A stretch of 64,000 nucleotides of DNA, from positions 248,001-312,000 of the forward strand of contig NZ_JAEHFX010000005.1 in NCBI RefSeq assembly GCF_016623615.1, in the 5' to 3' direction. The notes under the pieces were generated by a model, which saw only the letters and a program-made list of their open reading frames with translations, had not been told where the DNA came from and searched no databases. The number at the start of each line of letters is the position of its first letter. Position 1 is the stretch's first letter. Source of the stretch: Adhaeribacter terrigena. GTDB taxonomy: Bacteria; Bacteroidota; Bacteroidia; Cytophagales; Hymenobacteraceae. Both the position numbers and the translations under genes were made by a program. Below, piece by piece: positions 3-7,843 of the stretch.

Positions 3-1019
3 ACCACTACTGTGGGGGCCTGCGTAAGTTTTGCTACTAAAACTGTAACAGTGGTGCCCGAAACGCCAGCCGTGATCGATCCGATAGATTCAGTTTATTG
101 TATTTATTCGCCCGATATAACCCTGAATGGCAACCCAACTGGTGGAAGCTGGAGCGGTACCGGCGTGAAGAACGGAAACCAGTGGTCGGCTGCTACGGCC
201 GGGCCGGGAAATCACATTATAACCTATTCTTTTACCGACACGGTAGGCTGCATTTCTACCGCTACCAAAAATGTACGGGTAGCGCTGCCGGTTACCCCAA
301 ATGCAGGGCCTGACGAAGGTATTTGCGCCATTTCCGATCCGTTCCAGTTAACCGGGGCCACGCCGGCGGGCGGAGTATGGAGCGGTAACGGCGTTTCGGC
401 AAACGGAATTTTTACGCCAAGCCCTAACCTGATCGGTACGCAAACCCTTACCTATACCATTACTTTGGGTACTTGTAAATACATCGCTACCAAAAAGATA
501 CAGGTAGACCCGGTTCCGGATGTTTTTGCGAAACTGGATTTCGGGAATTGCGGTACCGACACTGCTGCCACAGGTTTTGCCCCGCTAAAAATAAACTTCC
601 AGAATAATACGCCGATCGGCAAAAGTTATACCTGGGATTTCGGCGACGGCACCAAGTCTACTGAACCAAACCCGGAACATATTTATACCCAGCCGGGCAC
701 TTATGTAGTGAAACTCACCACTGATTTTGGCCGGGGCTGCGTGCGCGAATCTACGGTAAACACGGTAACAGTAATAAAAGAAAAGATCCCGAATATTATT
801 ACCCCGAACGGCGATAAACTGAACGATAACTTTGTACCCCAGGTGAGTTGTAACCCAACCAGCCTTACCATTTACAGCCGCTGGGGTCACGTGATCTATA
901 AAAACGAAAATTACAACGGCGAATTCAACGCCGATAAGATCAGCAGTGGCACGTACTATTACCACATCCTGGATACGCAGGGCCGCAACTGGAAAGGCTG
1001 GCTCGAAATCCTGAAATAA
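3..1019 (+). CDS. Secreted PKD-domain protein, C-terminal part, T9SS type B sorting domain (5' truncated by window)
   Basis: This is the 3' end of a large secreted protein; the frame is open from base 3 and the true start lies before the window. The visible part begins with immunoglobulin-like segments carrying a repeated GGSWSGTGV / GGVWSGNGV pattern. A PKD domain follows, with YTWDFGDGTKS and a later PGTYVVKL strand. The last 80 or so residues are a gliding-motility-associated C-terminal domain (IITPNGDKLNDNF, IYSRWGHVIY, SGTYYYHI), which is the T9SS type B signal. Proteins of this build are exported across the outer membrane and kept at the cell surface with help from a PorP/SprF protein; one such protein is encoded at 54873, but no direct link is visible. 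The stop is followed within 10 bases by the dispersed 16-bp element and then a strong terminator. The cargo function cannot be told. Confidence 0.85.
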   Translation, partial: TTTVGACVSFATKTVTVVPETPAVIDPIDSVYCIYSPDITLNGNPTGGSWSGTGVKNGNQWSAATAGPGNHIITYSFTDTVGCISTATKNVRVALPVTPNAGPDEGICAISDPFQLTGATPAGGVWSGNGVSANGIFTPSPNLIGTQTLTYTITLGTCKYIATKKIQVDPVPDVFAKLDFGNCGTDTAATGFAPLKINFQNNTPIGKSYTWDFGDGTKSTEPNPEHIYTQPGTYVVKLTTDFGRGCVRESTVNTVTVIKEKIPNIITPNGDKLNDNFVPQVSCNPTSLTIYSRWGHVIYKNENYNGEFNADKISSGTYYYHILDTQGRNWKGWLEILK

Positions 1020-1024
1020 ACGTT

Positions 1025-1040
1025 AAAACGCTATGCTTTT
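1025..1040 (+). repeat. Dispersed 16-bp element, type copy
   Basis: AAAACGCTATGCTTTT lies 5 bases after a stop codon. It is followed by CAGCGCTAAAACTATAAAAC, the extended half seen at many other copies. See the finding on the dispersed element for all positions. Confidence 0.75.
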
Positions 1041-1105
1041 CAGCGCTAAAACTATAAAACCGAAATGTTGATCACGTATTAAAGACTCGATCTGAAAAAG
1101 AAAAA

Positions 1106-1136
1106 CCTCCGGCAAAGCTTTGCCGGAGGGTTTTTT
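1106..1136 (+). terminator. Intrinsic terminator of the T9SS cargo gene
   Basis: A perfect 12-bp stem, CCTCCGGCAAAG paired with CTTTGCCGGAGG, is followed by six T. It lies about 90 bases after the stop codon at 1019. Confidence 0.9.
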
Positions 1137-1253
1137 ATGAAACAGCATTAGGCCAGGATATCTGCTTGCCTAAATTCAAATGCCGCCGTGAGCAAGGAAT
1201 TCATATTCTGGCTTATTGGCTGGTACGAGCTAAAAACTTACCCCAGCCAATAA

Positions 1254-1982
1254 TTACTTGCCGCCATTGGTCGTGGAAAGATCCGCTTCTATGCAGTTAA
1301 TGCGCGCGACGCTGGCAACCGGCGGAACCGCCTGACAGATAACGGCATTCTGGTAACGGTTGTCGCGTTGCATCAGTTCGTAGCCAATTATGTAACGCTG
1401 GCCATTCACGAGCTGTAAACCCTGCACATTGGTTTCCCAGGGCTGCAGCAAGGTGCCATCGTCCAGGCGCAGCCAGATATTAGCCCACACACCGGCGCCG
1501 CAAATTACGGTTTCGGCAGTGGCGTAGATGCTGCAGTTTTGCGGGCCTGGTTCGGCGCCGCAAAAAGGAAGTGCTTCGGCGCAGGTAATTTTTATGGCTT
1601 GTTCCGGCAATTCAGTAGCCACCAGGTAATTGCAGATAATAGCGTTTTGGGGATTCTGTTCTACCACCTCGTAGGCAATTTTCAGCTGCATGCCTTTTTT
1701 CAGTTCGGGCAGGTTTACCAGGCTGGAAGTTGGCATGAGTAGTTTGCCTTGCTCGGTGCGGAACCAGAAATTGCCTTCTGAACTCTGCCAGCAGCCATCT
1801 TCCTCTACCGTTACCAGGGTGTTGCAAACGCCTTTAGGTTCCGGGTCTTCGCCGCATCGGGTTATATCGCAACCTGAAAGGCCGAGCATGAGCAAAGCCA
1901 GGAAACCGTAAATTGTGTTTTTCGGGCGGAAGCTGCTTTGTAATTTTGCCGGGTTCCGGCGCAGCCATTCATAATTTTTCAT
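1254..1982 (-). CDS. Lipoprotein with two tandem repeats of an unknown domain
   Basis: Predicted 242-residue lipoprotein. A basic N-terminus leads into a hydrophobic stretch (GFLALLMLGLSGC) that ends in a lipobox, with Cys near residue 38 as the lipidation site. The mature part holds two copies of a unit of about 70-80 residues. Each copy has a Trp/Phe-rich strand (EGNFWFRTEQGKLLMP; VWANIWLRLDDGTLLQP), then G-x-x-x-x-IAYE / IIGYE, then QNAIIC / QNAVIC, and ends in KITC / RINC. The paired cysteines suggest disulfides within each unit. The domain resembles a small beta-barrel but I cannot name the family. It stands alone, 158 bases after the end of the anti-sigma gene on the same strand, so a shared transcript is possible. 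Confidence 0.7.
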   Translation of the reverse strand: MKNYEWLRRNPAKLQSSFRPKNTIYGFLALLMLGLSGCDITRCGEDPEPKGVCNTLVTVEEDGCWQSSEGNFWFRTEQGKLLMPTSSLVNLPELKKGMQLKIAYEVVEQNPQNAIICNYLVATELPEQAIKITCAEALPFCGAEPGPQNCSIYATAETVICGAGVWANIWLRLDDGTLLQPWETNVQGLQLVNGQRYIIGYELMQRDNRYQNAVICQAVPPVASVARINCIEADLSTTNGGK

Positions 1983-2140
1983 AGTAATTCGGTTTTAAGA
2001 TTTTTTTTAGAAGTAATGGCCGGAAAAAAGAAAAAGCTGCAGTCTTTTCCGCGTCCGGCGGTTTTAAAGAAGACTTCGGAAAGTTTTCTGACGTTGCAAC
2101 ACGGGCAGAAATTTTAGTTAAAAAGGCTAGGCTTCCGGGC

Positions 2141-4066
2141 TTAAAAACTATAACCCAGTTTCAGCGAGGCGCCCACGCTCCGCGGATTTTTCTGTTTCGC
2201 GCCGGCAGTTCTTTCAGCCTGAATAAGCGGCTTTAAATATTGTTCGCCTTCCAGCGCCATTTCCAGTTGCCAATGTTGGGAAAGCTGGTAGCCCACACCG
2301 GTTTGCAAACCCACGGCCGGCAGCCAATTCCGGAAAGCCTGTTCCTGCGGCGCGCTGCTCATCGTTGCGGCCTCATCTTTGGTTCGGGAATTGGTATAAA
2401 CCGTTTGTTCATGCTTCGTTTCGATGGCGGCAGTCGTCAGTAAATTCATGGTAAAACCGGCTGCGCCAAAGTAATAAAGCGTTTTGCCGTTGGTTTGGTA
2501 ACGCAGGTTTACCGGCACGCCGATCTGCTGGAAAACGTAGCTGGTTTTGTTTTCGGGAGTATTAAGGATTTGCGTTTTGTCTGGGTCGAAACTGTTTTCC
2601 AGTACGGTTTCCAGCACGGTTTGCGGGGCATGTTGCTGGGTGGGTAATCCTGATCCTATGCCCGTGTTGGTAACTTCCCGGGTAGAAAAAGCATAATGCG
2701 AAGCGGTCTGGGCCTGGTTGCGGAAATACCGGAAACCGCTTTGCAGCAGCCAGTTTTTAGTAAGTTTATACGCCACCTGCAGCGCGCCGCCCTGCGAATA
2801 GCCCGGTCGGGTTTCCTGGTTAAATTCCCGGATAGCTTCTTCGTATTGGGCAATGTTTTCGGCTTGTTGCTGCTGGCTTATCAGGCTGGCGTTGGGTTGG
2901 GCCACAACCTGGTTCGCCAGACGCATGCCCGCCTCAAAGCGGCTGCCGGAATAGGCAAGTGCCAGCAGCCATTTGCCGGATTGCGACGTTTTTTTCTCTT
3001 TCGTTTCTGTTTCTGTCAGGTTTTCGGGTACCGGAATGGTAGCCAGCAGGTTAGAGTCCGGAAGGATTGATTTTCCCTGTTCGGCTTTTGGCAGTTCGGG
3101 GTTATTAAGTTTCAGAAAAGGCAGTGGCTTGAATTTCGCTTTTTTAAGAGAAACGCTATGATTCTGCGACGTAAAAGTGCTTGCCTTCGAAACACCCGGC
3201 GCTTCGGCAGTGGTCATTGGGTTTTGGAAGGCCGCCGCAACAGAAGCATGCTGAGCGGTTAGTGTTGTTGGGGAAGGAGCTGTTTTACTTGCTGCGGCAG
3301 ATTCCTGATGCGCATTGGCAGTTTCCGGCGCGGCGCTGCGGGTTGCATTTATAGGCTCCGAAATTGCTGCAATGGTAACCTCCGGAGTGGAAATTTCAGT
3401 TACCTTAGCCACCGTTTCTGAAGCGGGAATGCCAGCCGGAGCAGTTTTAGCTGCTGAAAGCATAGCGTTTTGCGGAGCTCCGGATGCTGCGTTTCCGGGT
3501 TGCGAAGCCTGGGGTCTTACTTTTGTAGCATTAAAAGCTACCGTTTTTTCTGCTGCAGCATTTTTTGAGGTAAACTCGTTTTCAGCGTTCGCATTTTGCG
3601 CGGTTCCGGTATTTAAAGCAAGTTGTTTAGCTGTTTCTGCTGATTCGGTTCCGGAATAAGCGCGGGCAGTTTTTTCGCTTGGAAGCAGCGCATTTTCGGA
3701 AGTTTTCGGGCTTGAAGCAATAGCCGTTTCCGGAACCATGTTTTCAGTCTGCTGCGGGGCCGGCGCGTTGGAGTTTCCGTTTGCCGCAGGTTTTTGGGTA
3801 GTTGCCATTTCGGCGCTTTCTTCTTGCAGGTGCCTGAGTTCTTTGGGAATTAGAACCGCGCTAAAAGCCAGCAAAAGCAACAGGCAAGCCGCCGCCAGAC
3901 GCGAATAAACCCGGAAACGGTTTTTGTAGACCAGGGCTTCTTCTTTATCCAGGCTTAGTTCAATTTTATCCCAGAGGTTATCGGTGGGCGCTGCCTGGTA
4001 ATTTCCCAGCTTTTGCCGGAACTCCGCCTGCATTTTATCGGAATTTGGATCAGCTGATTTTTTCAT
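2141..4066 (-). CDS. Dual-membrane-spanning anti-sigma-like protein with C-terminal outer-membrane beta-barrel (Dma-like)
   Basis: This 641-residue protein appears to reach from cytoplasm to outer membrane. Residues 1-53 are hydrophilic and would be cytoplasmic (NLWDKIELSLDKEEALVYKN), followed by one membrane helix at about 55-74. A long Ala/Thr/Ser/Pro-rich segment without predicted fold (about 80-330) would cross the periplasm. From about 365 to the C-terminal Phe there are alternating amphipathic strands typical of an outer-membrane barrel (GVGYQLSQHWQLEMALEGEQ, ASLKLGYSF). Its start overlaps the end of the sigma factor gene by 17 bases, so the two are translationally coupled. This matches the Dma family of dual-membrane anti-sigma factors described in Bacteroides, where an outer-membrane barrel is joined to an anti-sigma segment. 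That it binds the neighbouring sigma factor is an inference from the gene pair. The linker is low-complexity and strongly Ala-biased. Confidence 0.78.
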   Translation of the reverse strand: MKKSADPNSDKMQAEFRQKLGNYQAAPTDNLWDKIELSLDKEEALVYKNRFRVYSRLAAACLLLLLAFSAVLIPKELRHLQEESAEMATTQKPAANGNSNAPAPQQTENMVPETAIASSPKTSENALLPSEKTARAYSGTESAETAKQLALNTGTAQNANAENEFTSKNAAAEKTVAFNATKVRPQASQPGNAASGAPQNAMLSAAKTAPAGIPASETVAKVTEISTPEVTIAAISEPINATRSAAPETANAHQESAAASKTAPSPTTLTAQHASVAAAFQNPMTTAEAPGVSKASTFTSQNHSVSLKKAKFKPLPFLKLNNPELPKAEQGKSILPDSNLLATIPVPENLTETETKEKKTSQSGKWLLALAYSGSRFEAGMRLANQVVAQPNASLISQQQQAENIAQYEEAIREFNQETRPGYSQGGALQVAYKLTKNWLLQSGFRYFRNQAQTASHYAFSTREVTNTGIGSGLPTQQHAPQTVLETVLENSFDPDKTQILNTPENKTSYVFQQIGVPVNLRYQTNGKTLYYFGAAGFTMNLLTTAAIETKHEQTVYTNSRTKDEAATMSSAPQEQAFRNWLPAVGLQTGVGYQLSQHWQLEMALEGEQYLKPLIQAERTAGAKQKNPRSVGASLKLGYSF

Positions 4067-4622
4067 GATAAATTTTATTAGATTTTTCCACCATTTCGCG
4101 CAGCATGTTCCGGGCCCTTAAATAATGCGAGCGGCAGGTTACTTCGGGCACGTTCAGCATTTCCGAAATTTCTTTGTAGGAATAGCCTTCAATGGCAAAT
4201 AAGTTGAAAACGGCCTGGTATTTTGGTTGTAAACTGCGCACCAGTTCCATCAGTTCTTCGGCGGCAAACGTGCTGAAAGCAGTTTCGGGCTCGGCAATTT
4301 CTACGAGTTCGTCGGTTTCGGAAGCTTCGGTTTTATGCAAGCGGCTCCGTAAATGCGACAACGCGGTGTTTATGGTAATGCGGCGCACCCAGCCTTCCAG
4401 CGGGCAATCGCCTTTAAATTTGTCGATGTTTTTGAAGACCTTCAGGAAAGCGTCGTGCATGATGTCTTCGGCTTCGAAGCTGGTTTTCGAGTAGCGCAGG
4501 CAAACTCCCTTCATGGTGGCGGCAAAGCGTTCATAAAGTAGTTTCTGCATTTCCCGGTTTCCAGCCGCGCAGCCCTGAATCATTTCAGCTTCGCTGACCG
4601 ATTTTTTCCTGAAGATCCGCAA
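4050..4622 (-). CDS. RNA polymerase sigma factor, ECF (sigma-70) family
   Basis: A 190-residue ECF sigma factor. Region 2 spans about residues 24-90 (LLYERFAATMKGVCLRYSK, EAEDIMHDAFLKVFKNI, WVRRITINTALSHLR). Region 4 spans about 125-180 (LQPKYQAVFNLFAIEGYSYKE, then the helix-turn-helix with EISEMLNVPEVTCRSHYLRARNML). The start used here is a TTG, because an in-frame stop lies just upstream; an internal ATG at 4583 would remove only 13 residues. The gene is the first of a two-gene unit with the membrane-spanning anti-sigma-like protein, which probably holds it inactive until a signal from the envelope arrives. Its regulon is not visible. Upstream lies the repeat-filled gap 4623-5354. Confidence 0.92.
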   Translation of the reverse strand: MRIFRKKSVSEAEMIQGCAAGNREMQKLLYERFAATMKGVCLRYSKTSFEAEDIMHDAFLKVFKNIDKFKGDCPLEGWVRRITINTALSHLRSRLHKTEASETDELVEIAEPETAFSTFAAEELMELVRSLQPKYQAVFNLFAIEGYSYKEISEMLNVPEVTCRSHYLRARNMLREMVEKSNKIYHEKIS

Positions 4623-4755
4623 AAGGTTATGGTAGTATTGTTTCGTTCACAGGTATGACTACCGGAATTTAAGGATTGTTGCAGGGTTTTTGAAATTATT
4701 TTAAGGGAAGGGGTTTTGGGAAGGGTGAAGGGATGGTTTATGTAGTTTTTTGGGT

Positions 4756-5318
4756 TGAAAGGATAGCGTTTTTTCGATCATTCTGACTCTTTTCGTCATC
4801 TCCACTCTTTTGGTCATCCCGACGTGGGGAGGGATCTATTTAAGCGAATAAGTAAGTTTGCTATTGAGTTTTTGAGTTTGAAAGTATAGCGTTTTACACC
4901 CTGTCATCCTGAACGTTAGTGAAGGATCTCGTCGGTGGTAAGCAGTTTTTAAGGTTAAAACGATACCGTTTTTATAGCTTGCTTTTCGTTCCTAACTATT
5001 AGCTCTTAACTTTCAATTAAACTTTCCCCCTCAAGCCGGGTGGCTTCGTTTCTGCGCTCGCGGCTGCAACCCTTCCTGCCCTTGCGGGCTGCCTGTGGCA
5101 CCGGAAGTCTTGGAGGCCGCTCTCACAGAAACTGGTATCAGTTCCCTTCGTAGCTGGCTTCTTTTAGTTTACTCTCTCAAATAGCGTGATTTTCAGGAAA
5201 CGCTGCGCTGGCGATAGGCGTGAAATGAAACTTAGGAGTGTAATTCTGTTAATTATCAAATTCTGATTCAGAAAAATAATCCTGTCCATCCCATAAATCC
5301 TTGAAATCGTGTTCAGAC
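4756..5318 (+). repeat. Composite intergenic repeat, copy 1 (fills most of gap 4623-5354)
   Basis: The 732-base gap holds no gene. In order it contains: the 16-bp element (4758-4774); a segment with TCATCCCGACG and GGAGGGATCTATTTAAGC; a second element (4881-4895); a third (4957-4973); an AT-rich lead; the folded core (5034-5142); CTTCTTTTAGTTTA; a small GC hairpin with CGCTGCGCTGGCG; and a tail ATCCTGTCCATCCCATAAAT ending in GTGTTCAGAC. The same order recurs at 8560-9337 and 40231-40850. Confidence 0.85.
5034..5142 (+). repeat. Structured repeat core, copy 1 (candidate RNA or hairpin DNA)
   Basis: Nested complementary segments: TTTCTG (5049) with CAGAAA (5126); GCGGC (5060) with GCCGC (5116); CTTCC (5072) with GGAAG (5103); GCCC (5078) with GGGC (5086). 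Small hairpins flank it: AGCCGGGTGGCT at the left and ACTGGTATCAGT at the right. Copies at 8740-8854 and 40428-40534 keep the folding; see the finding on compensatory changes. Confidence 0.75.
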
Positions 5319-5354
5319 AAAAAAACTTTAATCCTGAAAATGCTGATCCGGGGG

Positions 5355-6128
5355 TTAAACAAAATTACTGGCCAGGGCCAGCAGCGTGCCGGCAACGGTG
5401 GCAATAATTTTGTTTTTATGGAAACGGTGGTCGGGGCTGGTTTCGAAGAGGATGGTGGTGGAAATGTGCAGGAAATTACCGGCTACCAAACCCGACAGGA
5501 TCATGAATAAATTGGTGTTTTGCAGCTGGTCCAGAATTACGTAATTGCTGAACAGAATGCCGAGCGGCGAGGCAATGGCAAACAGAAAAAGGTAGCCGAA
5601 TGCTTTCTTAAAATTATTCAGCCGGAACATTAAAACCGACATCAGCGCTACCGCTGCCGGTATATGGTGAATGGCAATGCCCACCAGTACGCTGTAAAAG
5701 TTATTGCCCAGGTAATCGTTATGGCCGTGATTATGGCCGGCGTGGTTATGTCCGTGGTCGTTTTCTACCAGAATGCTGCCTTCCAGGAAAGAGTGCATGA
5801 TCAGCGAGAAAAGCAGCATGAAAGGCACGTAGCCGGTATTTTTGTCGTGGGCGTGTTTGTGTACGTGGCCGTGTTCTATGCCTTCGGAAAAGAGTTCTAA
5901 AAGCAATTGCAGAAAGAAACCGGCCAGCACGTAATAGCCTACCTGGTGCGGATCGTCGGTGCTCAGCAATACATCGGGCAGGATGTGCAGGATGGTGATG
6001 GAAAACAGGTACGCGCCGCTGAAAGCCAGCAGGATCTTGAGGAAATACTGGTTGTCTTTAGGCAGAAAGCGTACGAGCCAGCCGGCAAAAAGCACCGTGA
6101 AAAACAGGATCAGAATGGCTAAGATCAT
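5355..6128 (-). CDS. ZIP family divalent metal (zinc) transporter
   Basis: A 257-residue membrane protein with about eight hydrophobic helices, the usual ZIP number. The first helices carry FSGAYLFSITILHILPDVLL, and helix four carries the metal-binding signature HHIPAAVALMSVLM. Two loops are very His-rich: EHGHVHKHAHDKN near residue 90 and HGHNHAGHNHGHN near residue 125, typical of zinc-handling ZIP proteins. It would move Zn2+ or a similar ion into the cytoplasm across the inner membrane. Transcription comes from the right; the next gene on this strand, a methyltransferase, ends 105 bases away, so co-transcription is possible. Two metal-binding lipoproteins lie within 2 kb. The exact ion is not decided by the sequence. 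Confidence 0.9.
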   Translation of the reverse strand: MILAILILFFTVLFAGWLVRFLPKDNQYFLKILLAFSGAYLFSITILHILPDVLLSTDDPHQVGYYVLAGFFLQLLLELFSEGIEHGHVHKHAHDKNTGYVPFMLLFSLIMHSFLEGSILVENDHGHNHAGHNHGHNDYLGNNFYSVLVGIAIHHIPAAVALMSVLMFRLNNFKKAFGYLFLFAIASPLGILFSNYVILDQLQNTNLFMILSGLVAGNFLHISTTILFETSPDHRFHKNKIIATVAGTLLALASNFV

Positions 6129-6233
6129 GGCAGTAAATTAGACAGCGGTTTCAGCACACCGGCATCAGGGTAAAATAAGCGAATAAAATTGTTTTCTGCC
6201 CGCACTTTTTCCGGTTTAAGCAATGCTGGGTTA

Positions 6234-6968
6234 TTATTTCTTCAGAATGAAAATGAGGCGGTCGCTGGTTTTCGCGTCAAATGGTTCGAGCTTGTAGCTA
6301 CCGAAACATTCGTGCAACCGTAGATCGGTCATTTTAAAATATTCGTGGAAATCTTCGGTGGTTAACGCCCATACTTTTTCCTGGAAATGATATGGCTTGC
6401 CTTCGGCCTCAAAATCGATGGTTTTTACGATCAGCTTACCTTCCATGCGTTTGGTGATGTGAAAGGTAATGCCTTCTAAAACTTTGGTTTCCTGCGGCAC
6501 TAAATTGGCCACTACTTTTTCAGCATTCAGGAAATCGATCACCAGTTTTCCGCCGGGTTTTACCGATTCAGCAATGGCTTTTAGCGCTACTACGTTTTCG
6601 GTTTCGGAAGCAAAATAACCAAAGCTGGTAAACAGATTCAGCACAAAGTCGAAGTGGTTTGGTTTGAACGGTTCGCGCATATCGTGCACTTCAAAATGCA
6701 GCTTTTCGTTCTCGAATTGTTTGGCGGCGGCAATGCTTTGCGGCGCCAGGTCTACCCCGGTTACGTTATAGCCCTGCTGGTTCAGGTAAATTGCGTGGCG
6801 GCCCTTGCCGCAGGCCAGATCCAGGATCTTAGCATCGGGTTTAGGGTGCAGGTGTTGCAGCAGGTTTTGCAGGAATTGCTCGGCTTCGGCGTAATTGCGG
6901 TTGCTGTAGAGCATGTGGTAATACGGCGAATCGAACCAGGTACTGAACCATTCTTCTGGCTGGGACAT
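6234..6968 (-). CDS. Class I SAM-dependent methyltransferase
   Basis: A 244-residue soluble enzyme with the Rossmann-type methyltransferase fold. Motif I is ILDLACGKGRHAIYLN near residues 43-58, followed by the acidic end of strand two, GVDLAP near 67. Motif post-I is FEVHDMREPF and motif IV is FDFVLNLFTSFGYF. The N-terminus (EWFSTWFDSPYYHMLYSNR) is characteristic of a family common in Bacteroidota. The substrate is not known. A good promoter box (TATTTTTG read on this strand, 7003-7010) stands about 35 bases before the start codon. The terminator of the upstream lipoprotein gene at 7051-7080 supports a separate transcript. Confidence 0.88.
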   Translation of the reverse strand: MSQPEEWFSTWFDSPYYHMLYSNRNYAEAEQFLQNLLQHLHPKPDAKILDLACGKGRHAIYLNQQGYNVTGVDLAPQSIAAAKQFENEKLHFEVHDMREPFKPNHFDFVLNLFTSFGYFASETENVVALKAIAESVKPGGKLVIDFLNAEKVVANLVPQETKVLEGITFHITKRMEGKLIVKTIDFEAEGKPYHFQEKVWALTTEDFHEYFKMTDLRLHECFGSYKLEPFDAKTSDRLIFILKK

Positions 6969-7002
6969 AGTTTGCGGGGTTTACAGGGCGGTTAATGCGG
7001 TG

Positions 7003-7010
7003 CAAAAATA
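7003..7010 (-). promoter_or_regulatory. Probable -7 promoter box of the methyltransferase gene
   Basis: On the minus strand this reads TATTTTTG, a match to the Bacteroidota -7 consensus TAnnTTTG. It lies about 35 bases before the ATG at 6968. A T-rich stretch (CTTTTTACG) sits about 17 bases further upstream at the -33 position. Confidence 0.5.
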
Positions 7011-7050
7011 AGCGGATTTGCGCGCGTAAAAAGACTTTACGGAAGGCACA

Positions 7051-7080
7051 AAAAAAGGCAGATACTTTTTCTGCCTTTTT
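7051..7080 (-). terminator. Intrinsic terminator after the HMBD lipoprotein gene
   Basis: AAAAAAGGCAG pairs with CTGCCTTTTT around a 9-base loop. T-runs exist on both strands; the gene that ends nearby (7102) is on the minus strand. One copy of the 16-bp element (7076-7091) overlaps its right arm. Confidence 0.8.
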
Positions 7081-7091
7081 CTATAGCGTTT
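7076..7091. repeat. Dispersed 16-bp element overlapping a terminator
   Basis: TTTTTCTATAGCGTTT shares its first five bases with the terminator stem and lies between that terminator and the stop codon at 7102. Confidence 0.6.
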
Positions 7092-7101
7092 CCCAAAGGA
7101 A

Positions 7102-7401
7102 TTATTTGGTAGCGGCAGTATCGGTAATAGTAGCTGGCTGCGTAATGTCGGCCGAGGTTGAAACCGGGGCTACGTAATCCGGATTTTTCTCCAGGTCCAT
7201 TTCGCAAACCGGGCATTTGCCGGGTTGGTTGCTGGCGCTGCCTTCGCAATGCATCGGGCAAGTATAAGCCTTGTCGGTTACTTTGCGGGTGGTTTCGGTA
7301 GTTTGGTGAGTTTCATCGCTGGCAGTCTGGCTCGTGCAGGCGGTAAAACCGGCAAGGCTTAATCCTAGGGCCAATGCGCTGAAAATATTTCTGATCTTCA
7401 T
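7102..7401 (-). CDS. Small lipoprotein with heavy-metal-binding domain (HMBD)
   Basis: A 99-residue secreted lipoprotein. The start used is the ATG directly before a signal peptide (MKIRNIFSALALGLSLAGFTAC), Cys22 being the lipidation site; a longer reading frame exists but adds only a poor leader. The core is YTCPMHCEG near residues 47-54 and PGKCPVCEMDL near 60-70, the Cys-Pro-Met-His ... Cys-x-x-Cys pattern of the heavy-metal-binding domain found in copper and other metal efflux proteins. Flanking parts are Thr-rich and without fold. It probably binds Cu or a similar soft metal at the cell envelope. The His-rich lipoprotein at 7496 precedes it by 94 bases on the same strand. Confidence 0.82.
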   Translation of the reverse strand: MKIRNIFSALALGLSLAGFTACTSQTASDETHQTTETTRKVTDKAYTCPMHCEGSASNQPGKCPVCEMDLEKNPDYVAPVSTSADITQPATITDTAATK

Positions 7402-7495
7402 ATTCTGTTTATATAATCGTAAGCGACTCAGCACTTTTCAGGTCGTTTTTCCTGCCGTTTTTCAGTTGGCAACAAACCTGAAACGCTTAACCAGC

Positions 7496-7843
7496 TTACT
7501 GGTGGTTTTCTACCTGCTCGGCGTCTGTGGTTTTTTCTTCGGCTGGTACTTGTTTTTTGCCACCGATGTCGCTTTTGTGCTCATCCGCGTTCAGCATTAC
7601 GTCCGGGCGGGTGGTATTGGTGCCGCCGGCATCCGGGCCGGTGGTCTGGTGGCCGGTTGCTTCATGGCCGTGCTCCGGGTGCGGGGCTACCTGACCGTTC
7701 AGGTTGTAAATATCGGTTTCGCGGGTTCCGGGAGCAACTTCGTTTACAGAAACTTTGTTGCCCGGACGGAAATCGGATGGTTGGCTGCTGCAAGCCGAAA
7801 GGATGCCTGCGAAAGCAAAAGCTACTAAAAGCGATTTATTCAT
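7496..7843 (-). CDS. His-containing small lipoprotein, unknown function
   Basis: A 115-residue lipoprotein: signal peptide MNKSLLVAFAFAGILSAC with a clear lipobox (LSAC, Cys18). The mature part is hydrophilic and low in hydrophobic residues, so probably unfolded. It has a short His-rich stretch (PHPEHGHEATGHQ, about residues 54-66) and many Thr, Asp and Glu. I do not recognise a family. The position just upstream of a heavy-metal-binding lipoprotein, on the same strand, suggests a shared role in metal handling, which is inference. Two 16-bp elements fill the short gap to the next gene upstream. Confidence 0.65.
   Translation of the reverse strand: MNKSLLVAFAFAGILSACSSQPSDFRPGNKVSVNEVAPGTRETDIYNLNGQVAPHPEHGHEATGHQTTGPDAGGTNTTRPDVMLNADEHKSDIGGKKQVPAEEKTTDAEQVENHQ

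Follow-up and report, generated by a model that had tools for sequence, protein, structure and literature searches.

Near the beginning of the 64-kb window analysed here (the whole stretch of 64,000 nucleotides, positions 248,001 to 312,000 of contig NZ_JAEHFX010000005.1 of Adhaeribacter terrigena), a gene for an extracytoplasmic function (ECF) sigma factor is followed by a gene for an anti-sigma factor of the Dma/Reo type, predicted to span both membranes, and then by a gene for a NigD-like lipoprotein; promoter-like elements of one pattern precede the first and the third of these genes (Table 1). The open reading frames (ORFs) of the sigma factor and its partner have the coordinates reported in the first-pass annotation and overlap, as it stated, by 17 bases (4050–4066). 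In a congener (G001), the overlap is likewise 17 bases, and the order of a Zip-like ORF (identified by eye), sigma factor, Dma-type protein and NigD-like lipoprotein is common to the two genomes. Between these congeners, the sigma factors are 83% identical, compared with 37% for the Dma-type proteins in a local match of the whole protein (33–34% in multiple alignments) and 40% for the NigD-like proteins across the first 142 residues; judged from these sequences, the putative sensor and output gene evolve fast and the sigma factor slowly. Similarity of the sigma factor places the host near Pontibacter, Rufibacter and Hymenobacter.

Table 1. Features of the sigma/anti-sigma locus in the window, and type IX-ended anti-sigma factors at other loci
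Feature	Position	Strand	Basis
Promoter-like element TGCAAC-N19-TCAT before sigma gene, putative autoregulated ECF promoter	4655..4683	-	Conservation in relatives
ECF sigma factor, 190 aa, TTG start	4050..4622	-	Above cut-off in Pfam (Sigma70_r2/r4_2) and NCBIfam (sigma70-ECF)
Dma/Reo-type anti-sigma factor, predicted to span both membranes, 641 aa, ATG start	2141..4066	-	Sequence and model
Putative cytoplasmic N-terminal anti-sigma segment, residues 1-52	3911..4066	-	Alignment A3 and model helices
Predicted inner-membrane helix, residues ~55-76	3839..3904	-	Hydropathy
Disordered Ala/Thr/Ser/Pro-rich tether, residues 78-360	2987..3835	-	pLDDT, composition
Predicted eight-stranded outer-membrane barrel, residues 361-641	2144..2986	-	AlphaFold, VIA-align, Foldseek
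Second promoter-like element TGCAAC-N19-TCTT before NigD-like gene	2070..2098	-	Pattern match
NigD-like lipoprotein, duplicated domain, likely output gene	1254..1982	-	NigD_N PF12667
Anti-sigma factors directly after ECF sigma factor, C-terminal PF13585	L100:4537-5622, L111:4557-5744, L113:4543-5502, L124:4551-5627, L135:4539-5675		

The sigma factor and its Dma-type partner

The sigma factor scored above the Pfam cut-offs for Sigma70_r2 (50.9 bits) and Sigma70_r4_2 (57.2 bits), and among the 25 NCBIfam matches listed for it, of 103, the general sigma70-ECF family alone exceeded its cut-off. A first contig scan with the single Dma protein as query found nothing. In a sample of relatives, a full or partial Dma homologue (E 0.001) was held by 26 of 59 genomes, the window's own being included in this and in the following counts for relatives and for the phylum. 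Twenty-seven loci were fetched, 26 from the relatives' genomes plus the own one, and in all 27 a sigma sequence lies directly upstream of the Dma-type gene. Besides that of the congener, the sigma factors of 22 other relatives are 46–52% identical to that of the window. TTG is the start of the aligned sigma factor in 21 of the 27 loci, and sigma gene and partner overlap by 17–23 bases in 24, the overlap in L048, L049 and L051 being counted from an in-frame ATG 24 bases past the TTG chosen by the script; outside this range fall L055 (overlap of 8 bases), L056 (gap of 18 bases) and L036 (sigma factor in two frames, overlap unscored). Since the TTG and the overlap recur across these loci, both starts look real. 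Further irregularities were a partner split into two ORFs in L049 and a short partner (242 aa), lacking a barrel of its own, in L055.

When named genomes were scanned with the sigma alignment, 584 stretches were confirmed; the best 80 of these (referred to here as the 80 named loci) belong by title to Bacteroidota, except that L105 is titled only "bacterium". Within the first 90 residues of the ORF after the sigma gene, the strict motif P....W..h...h was present in 60 of these loci, where shuffles gave 0.7. In 65, the first 170 residues of this ORF contained a hydrophobic window of at least 1.6; in L114 and L129, the ORF is another sigma factor. The partner was at least 380 aa long in 54 loci, shorter in 22, and ran past the contig end in 4. 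Across the phylum, a profile of alignment A5 (the window protein plus 38 proteins from the named loci) matched in 34 of 148 sampled genomes at E 1e-8, some matches spanning the N-terminal part alone or the barrel part alone. We conclude that the two genes are a recurrent, real pair of the Dma/Reo type.

The partner had been described in the first-pass annotation as a short N-terminus, one inner-membrane helix, a linker and a C-terminal barrel, an order with which both hydropathy and an AlphaFold2 model agree. Its single hydrophobic segment, in which the best 19-residue windows begin at residues 53–59, has a mean hydropathy of 2.29 at residues 55–73, and a window of at least 1.6 occurs nowhere else in the protein. 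Lysine and arginine together number 11 in residues 1–56, before the helix, versus 2 in residues 76–110; the positive charge is thus mostly N-terminal of the helix, which fits an N-in topology. In the N-terminal segment, P27, W32, L39 and Y47 are invariant among the 23 sequences of alignment A3. The model, for which alignment A5 served as input, has a mean predicted local distance difference test (pLDDT) score of 64.5 and a predicted template modelling (pTM) score of 0.49, low values that are expected because so much of the protein is disordered; its N-terminus forms helices at residues 7–21 and 29–72, the long one holding most of the hydrophobic segment.

A C-terminus that did not fold as a barrel had been set beforehand as the observation that would overturn the proposal; in the model it forms eight strands between residues 366 and 640, mostly with pLDDT >90 (<50 in the loop 554–573), and the last residue of the protein is Phe. 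VIA-align superimposed the barrel on NspA (Z 18.4, 154 residues, root-mean-square deviation 3.3) and on the OmpA domain (Z 16.7, 165 residues, root-mean-square deviation 3.1), and Foldseek grouped it with OmpA, NspA and OmpW. The Pfam model OMP_b-brl_2 gave the window protein 18.6 bits, under the cut-off of 27; at E 0.1, 21 of 25 aligned proteins matched the Pfam barrel model, and at E 0.01, 27 of 39 did so, with the window protein among the matches both times, and a search of solved structures by sequence with the Dma protein returned no match at E up to 1. The C-terminus is thus predicted to be an OmpA/NspA-like eight-stranded barrel of the outer membrane. It shares its fold with the OmpA transmembrane domain, NspA and OmpW, but OmpA-type barrels stand alone or bear a periplasmic domain, whereas that of the window is tethered to an anti-sigma factor.

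The tether between helix and barrel comprises 283 aa (19.4% Ala, 11.7% Thr, no Cys), with pLDDT <50 across nearly all of residues 86–353 (~270 disordered residues). Of its earlier description as an unusually low-complexity linker, the complexity did not hold, not being unusually low by mean windowed entropy (rank 10 of 39 in A5 and 6 of 24 in A2, from the lowest), and low complexity was rejected as the special feature of the linker; what stands out is the length, the greatest in both sets (medians 184 and 200), where lengths are approximate, the linker ends having been taken from alignment columns. A rough polymer estimate of ~15 nm for the relaxed and 102 nm for the fully stretched tether bears out the earlier statement that the linker is long enough to cross the periplasm. 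Tether length may track the width of the periplasm or the force on the tether. Across the 39 Dma-type proteins of A5, it ranges from ~101 to 283 residues, the five shortest tethers belonging to loci titled Bacteroidales (three), Parabacteroides and Bacteroidota.

The order of the domains, the conservation of the N-terminal segment, the modelled barrel and the link with an ECF sigma factor support the Dma-type reading, and together with the design described in the literature they agree with the identity first proposed for the protein; the locus belongs to the Dma/Reo design known from Bacteroides and Phocaeicola. According to the available portions of the papers cited here by PMC number, Dma of Bacteroides likewise combines an anti-sigma N-terminus, one inner-membrane helix, a disordered tether and a C-terminal barrel with an adjacent ECF sigma factor (PMC13088901), and EcfO/Reo of Bacteroides fragilis and Phocaeicola vulgatus has the same architecture, with NigD genes in its regulon (PMC9308784, PMC13114119). 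The window copy differs from Dma in coming from a relative of Pontibacter, Rufibacter and Hymenobacter and in having the longest tether of those compared; from Dma1 of Bacteroides thetaiotaomicron (B. theta) in having a NigD-like gene directly downstream, nigD1 of B. theta being BT_4005; and from EcfO/Reo in host and inducer and in a NigD-like protein with two domain copies and a modest family match. Dma1, Dma2 and Reo were compared by their published descriptions, the nearest stand-in by sequence being locus L096 of a metagenome-assembled genome (MAG) titled Parabacteroides.

The promoter-like elements and the NigD-like gene

Upstream of the sigma gene (250 bases upstream plus 20 bases into the gene being searched), GCAAC-N19-TC[A/T] was found in 24 of the 27 loci, compared with 0–4 for other spacings from 12 to 26, one on the opposite strand, and a mean of 0.2 (maximum 2) in 200 dinucleotide shuffles; related loci are non-independent events in such counts. 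It also lies before 6 of 167 other ORFs of at least 200 aa in these loci, one of the six being the NigD-like gene of the window. With spacing 19, the element occurred in 29 of the 80 named loci; none of the other spacings between 12 and 26 exceeded 5. Within 500 bases after dma, it was present in 6 of the 25 related loci whose dma is intact and in 5 of 76 named loci, with at most 2 at other spacings in either set. Both window copies are intergenic and correctly oriented, and they are the only matches to TGCAAC-N19-TC[A/T] on either strand of the window. GCAAC-N19-TC[A/T] may be a working promoter. The element upstream of the sigma gene and its second copy before the NigD-like gene are new here; a literature search, whose partial coverage leaves novelty unproven, did not find the element sequence, and the available portion of a paper on regulatory modules of B. 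theta gives no promoter for this pair (PMC12596196).

It was also noticed that a stretch of sigma region 4 (window 4110–4151) reads PEVTCRSHY in the window and the congener (L031) versus the SEGTSKSQY common in the other relatives, and that the element starts with TGCAACA and TGCAACG in these two and with GCAACC in the other 22 of 24; a co-change of region 4 and element is possible from these sequences. In L037, L040 and L043, loci of three relatives, the element also precedes a nearby gene on the opposite strand with a signal-peptide-like start, the N-termini of these genes being similar.

The gene after the second element encodes a lipoprotein of 242 aa, with two domain copies 32% identical over 97 columns. 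It matched NigD_N (PF12667) with 28.1 bits against a cut-off of 24.3 and is the sole PF12667 match in the 4.43-Mb genome. This family was found in 1 of the 148 genomes sampled across the phylum, that of the window itself, and at E 0.01 in 3 of the 59 genomes of the relatives sample, where the own genome alone exceeded the cut-off; the genome-wide searches covered PF12667, not the related PF22221. The sole NCBIfam match was to the NigD1/NigD2 family NF051862 (29.1 bits in the window, 22.8 in the congener, both under the cut-off of 60), and by these scores the gene is NigD-like and outside the NCBIfam NigD1/NigD2 subfamily. Locus L096 encodes, directly after dma, a lipoprotein whose NigD_N-like domain is the related PF22221 (63.7 bits, cut-off 24.6). 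A single-sequence model of the NigD-like protein had a pLDDT of 36 and was unusable.

Both EcfO/Reo and Dma1/Das1 are documented to have NigD genes as an output. The EcfO regulon of P. vulgatus includes three nigD genes; NigD3293 is made in broth only when stressors are present or reo has been deleted, its production in the mouse gut requires EcfO-Reo, and one nigD (M0N98_03762) has a locus tag adjacent to those of ecfO-reo (M0N98_03760-61) (PMC13114119). The extra vesicles of a B. theta dma1 mutant depend on nigD1 (PMC13088901). The link of pair and NigD, shared with this distant lineage, is the strongest new support for a functional reading of the window locus.

Possible function of the locus

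The order of the genes, the anatomy as predicted, the repeated occurrence of the pair and the conservation of the element before the sigma gene are directly shown, and sigma binding, membrane insertion, a signal, proteolysis and promoter use are inferred. We consider it quite likely that the locus encodes a sensor of outer-membrane disturbance, in which the Dma-type protein holds the sigma factor and spans both membranes, and the sigma factor, once free, drives its own operon and the NigD-like gene. The first ~50 residues would retain the sigma factor at the inner membrane, which one helix would cross; the long disordered tether would cross the periplasm, and the barrel would sit in the outer membrane. 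Upon disturbance of the outer membrane, by which we mean that the barrel is misassembled, displaced or bound, the state of the barrel would be relayed along the tether, most likely via access of a protease to the tether or the inner-membrane part, and the sigma factor would be released to transcribe its own operon and the gene for the NigD-like surface lipoprotein from GCAAC-N19-TC[A/T] promoters. If it is a client of the barrel assembly machinery (BAM), the barrel could report its own failure of assembly. The first-pass annotation had proposed control of transcription in one step, which may be so, proteolytic steps being equally possible.

Several observations weigh against this reading. The residues assigned to sigma binding (1–52) are putative. 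The loose motif W..h, present in 78 of the 80 named loci yet in 43.7 of 80 shuffled N-termini, is near uninformative as a count; the strict motif was used in its place, and the exchange left our estimate unchanged, since the argument rests on the barrel model, the pairing and the element. At spacing 19, 51 of the 80 named loci are without the element upstream of the sigma gene, and the second copy was not found in the congener, whose NigD-like gene may be transcribed from the sigma promoter. Genome-wide, TGCAACN19TCWT had 25 matches versus 12 for a reversed control, a mild excess, and the variant TGCAACN17-18GTCNT had 9 versus 21, no excess. The NigD match is modest and below the NCBIfam cut-off, and among the 21 lipoproteins downstream of dma scanned in relatives, that of the window alone matched NigD_N. 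By hhalign, the window lipoprotein set was only weakly related to the Pontibacter-type set (probability 23%); it scored 1.6% with the Rufibacter-type set and showed no match to the L096 lipoprotein (0.3%), the Pontibacter-type and Rufibacter-type sets being related to each other (97%).

Nine of the 25 genome-wide matches lie outside ORFs of at least 150 aa, and seven of these have a start within 150 bases downstream by the rule of the script. Besides the NigD-like gene and the sigma gene, the seven comprise two TonB-receptor-like genes, a PheS-like one, one for a cargo of type IX secretion and one for a secreted protein that matches nothing in Pfam ("PheS-like" and "secreted" being our readings, and L060 ambiguous). 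A genome-wide regulon defined by the element was rejected as indistinguishable from chance in its present form.

Of the other explanations, we hold it possible, though doubtful, that the barrel is a receptor and that binding of an external ligand, such as a glycan, releases the sigma factor without any defect of assembly. A glycan ligand has been proposed for Dma2 (PMC13088901), and between the congeners the sensor diverges far faster than the sigma factor (37% versus 83% identity), as might a surface-exposed receptor; however, no SusC/SusD-type gene was found among the eight neighbouring ORFs scanned (12 to 7843), and the Phocaeicola pair is documented to be induced by the toxin BcpT and by bacteroidetocin A, the second of which inhibits BamA (PMC9308784, PMC13114119).

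It appears unlikely that the Dma-type protein is cut soon after synthesis, such that the barrel is an ordinary outer-membrane protein, an inner-membrane fragment regulates the sigma factor, and the membranes are never bridged. The tether is long and disordered and therefore prone to proteases, and split versions exist in which the barrel has its own gene, located after that of a short anti-sigma factor possessing membrane helix and tether: L168 (239–2875), in the genome of the window, has a sigma factor, a 302-aa anti-sigma factor and a barrel gene (OMP_b-brl_2, 35.8 bits), and elsewhere L137, L142 and L055 have a barrel gene with OMP_b-brl_2 over the cut-off, L143 being similar without a Pfam match. 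On the other hand, the fusion in one frame is kept in distant members, and the authors of the Reo and Dma papers describe a spanning protein (PMC13114119, PMC9308784, PMC13088901). That the NigD-like gene and its element are chance neighbours of the pair, as the lack of a second element in the congener, the mild genome-wide enrichment and the NCBIfam score would allow, is improbable, since the only PF12667 gene of the genome adjoins the pair, the congener has the same order, the 64 kb contain no matches besides the two elements, both intergenic and well oriented, and NigD is a known output elsewhere.

Variants of the anti-sigma frame

Besides the split version, the own genome holds a second fused pair (L170:1495-3664; sigma factor of 181 aa and partner of 544 aa in overlapping frames), as revealed by a profile search, and a short version (L169); the search also matched L167, L171 and L172, which were left out of the comparison. 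The second pair adjoins a gene that reads from its sequence as a metal P-type ATPase-like one. Some genomes encode barrel and anti-sigma factor separately and others as a fusion, which suggests a joint function. Five of the 80 named loci carry the CHU_C type IX domain PF13585 (31–61 bits, cut-off 27) instead of a barrel (Table 1), among them L135 of Crocinitomix catalasitica; such variants number at least five, the five scanned having been picked by eye from the C-termini. Long partners are thus not all barrels, as L111, which ends in the type IX domain, illustrates. A literature search for anti-sigma factors with terminal type IX secretion domains, of partial coverage and leaving novelty unproven, found the PorA/SigP paper alone, which in its available portion describes a different arrangement (PMC7712824). 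These variants are more novel than the window pair itself.

In a further 12 loci (L080–L084, L088, L092, L095, L101, L112, L117 and L126), of Chitinophagaceae (8 of 12 by title) and similar, the sigma partner has tandem anti-sigma-like motifs by eye (one motif in L126) without an outer module, and the gene after it encodes a thioesterase-looking protein of 140–151 aa, again as read by eye. Within the window, an edge ORF (12–1019, plus strand, 335 aa within the window) has PKD and CHU_C type IX secretion domains, and a small gene (7102–7434, minus strand) has a heavy-metal-binding domain (HMBD, 44.2 bits).

As a tentative idea, which we hold to be possible on the whole and no firmer than that, Bacteroidota may reuse one anti-sigma frame, consisting of sigma-holding helices, membrane helix and disordered tether, and vary its outer end, which is a barrel fused to it, a barrel encoded separately in the same operon, or a type IX domain. 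The outer end would be a client of an outer-membrane export machine, BAM or the type IX system, and would report on itself; failed receipt of it would free the sigma factor and turn on a lipoprotein stress regulon of small size, NigD-like members included.

How outer-membrane events are signalled to the cytoplasm is a live question, and with the window locus the Dma/Reo design of gut Bacteroides is extended to a lineage close to Pontibacter and Hymenobacter. The locus offers three handles, namely a promoter-like element from which targets may be predicted, a NigD-like neighbour that is recognisable and single where paralogues would otherwise be several, and a long tether whose shortening could show if its length counts, and the versions of the frame with other outer ends may allow the sensing part to be found by swapping.

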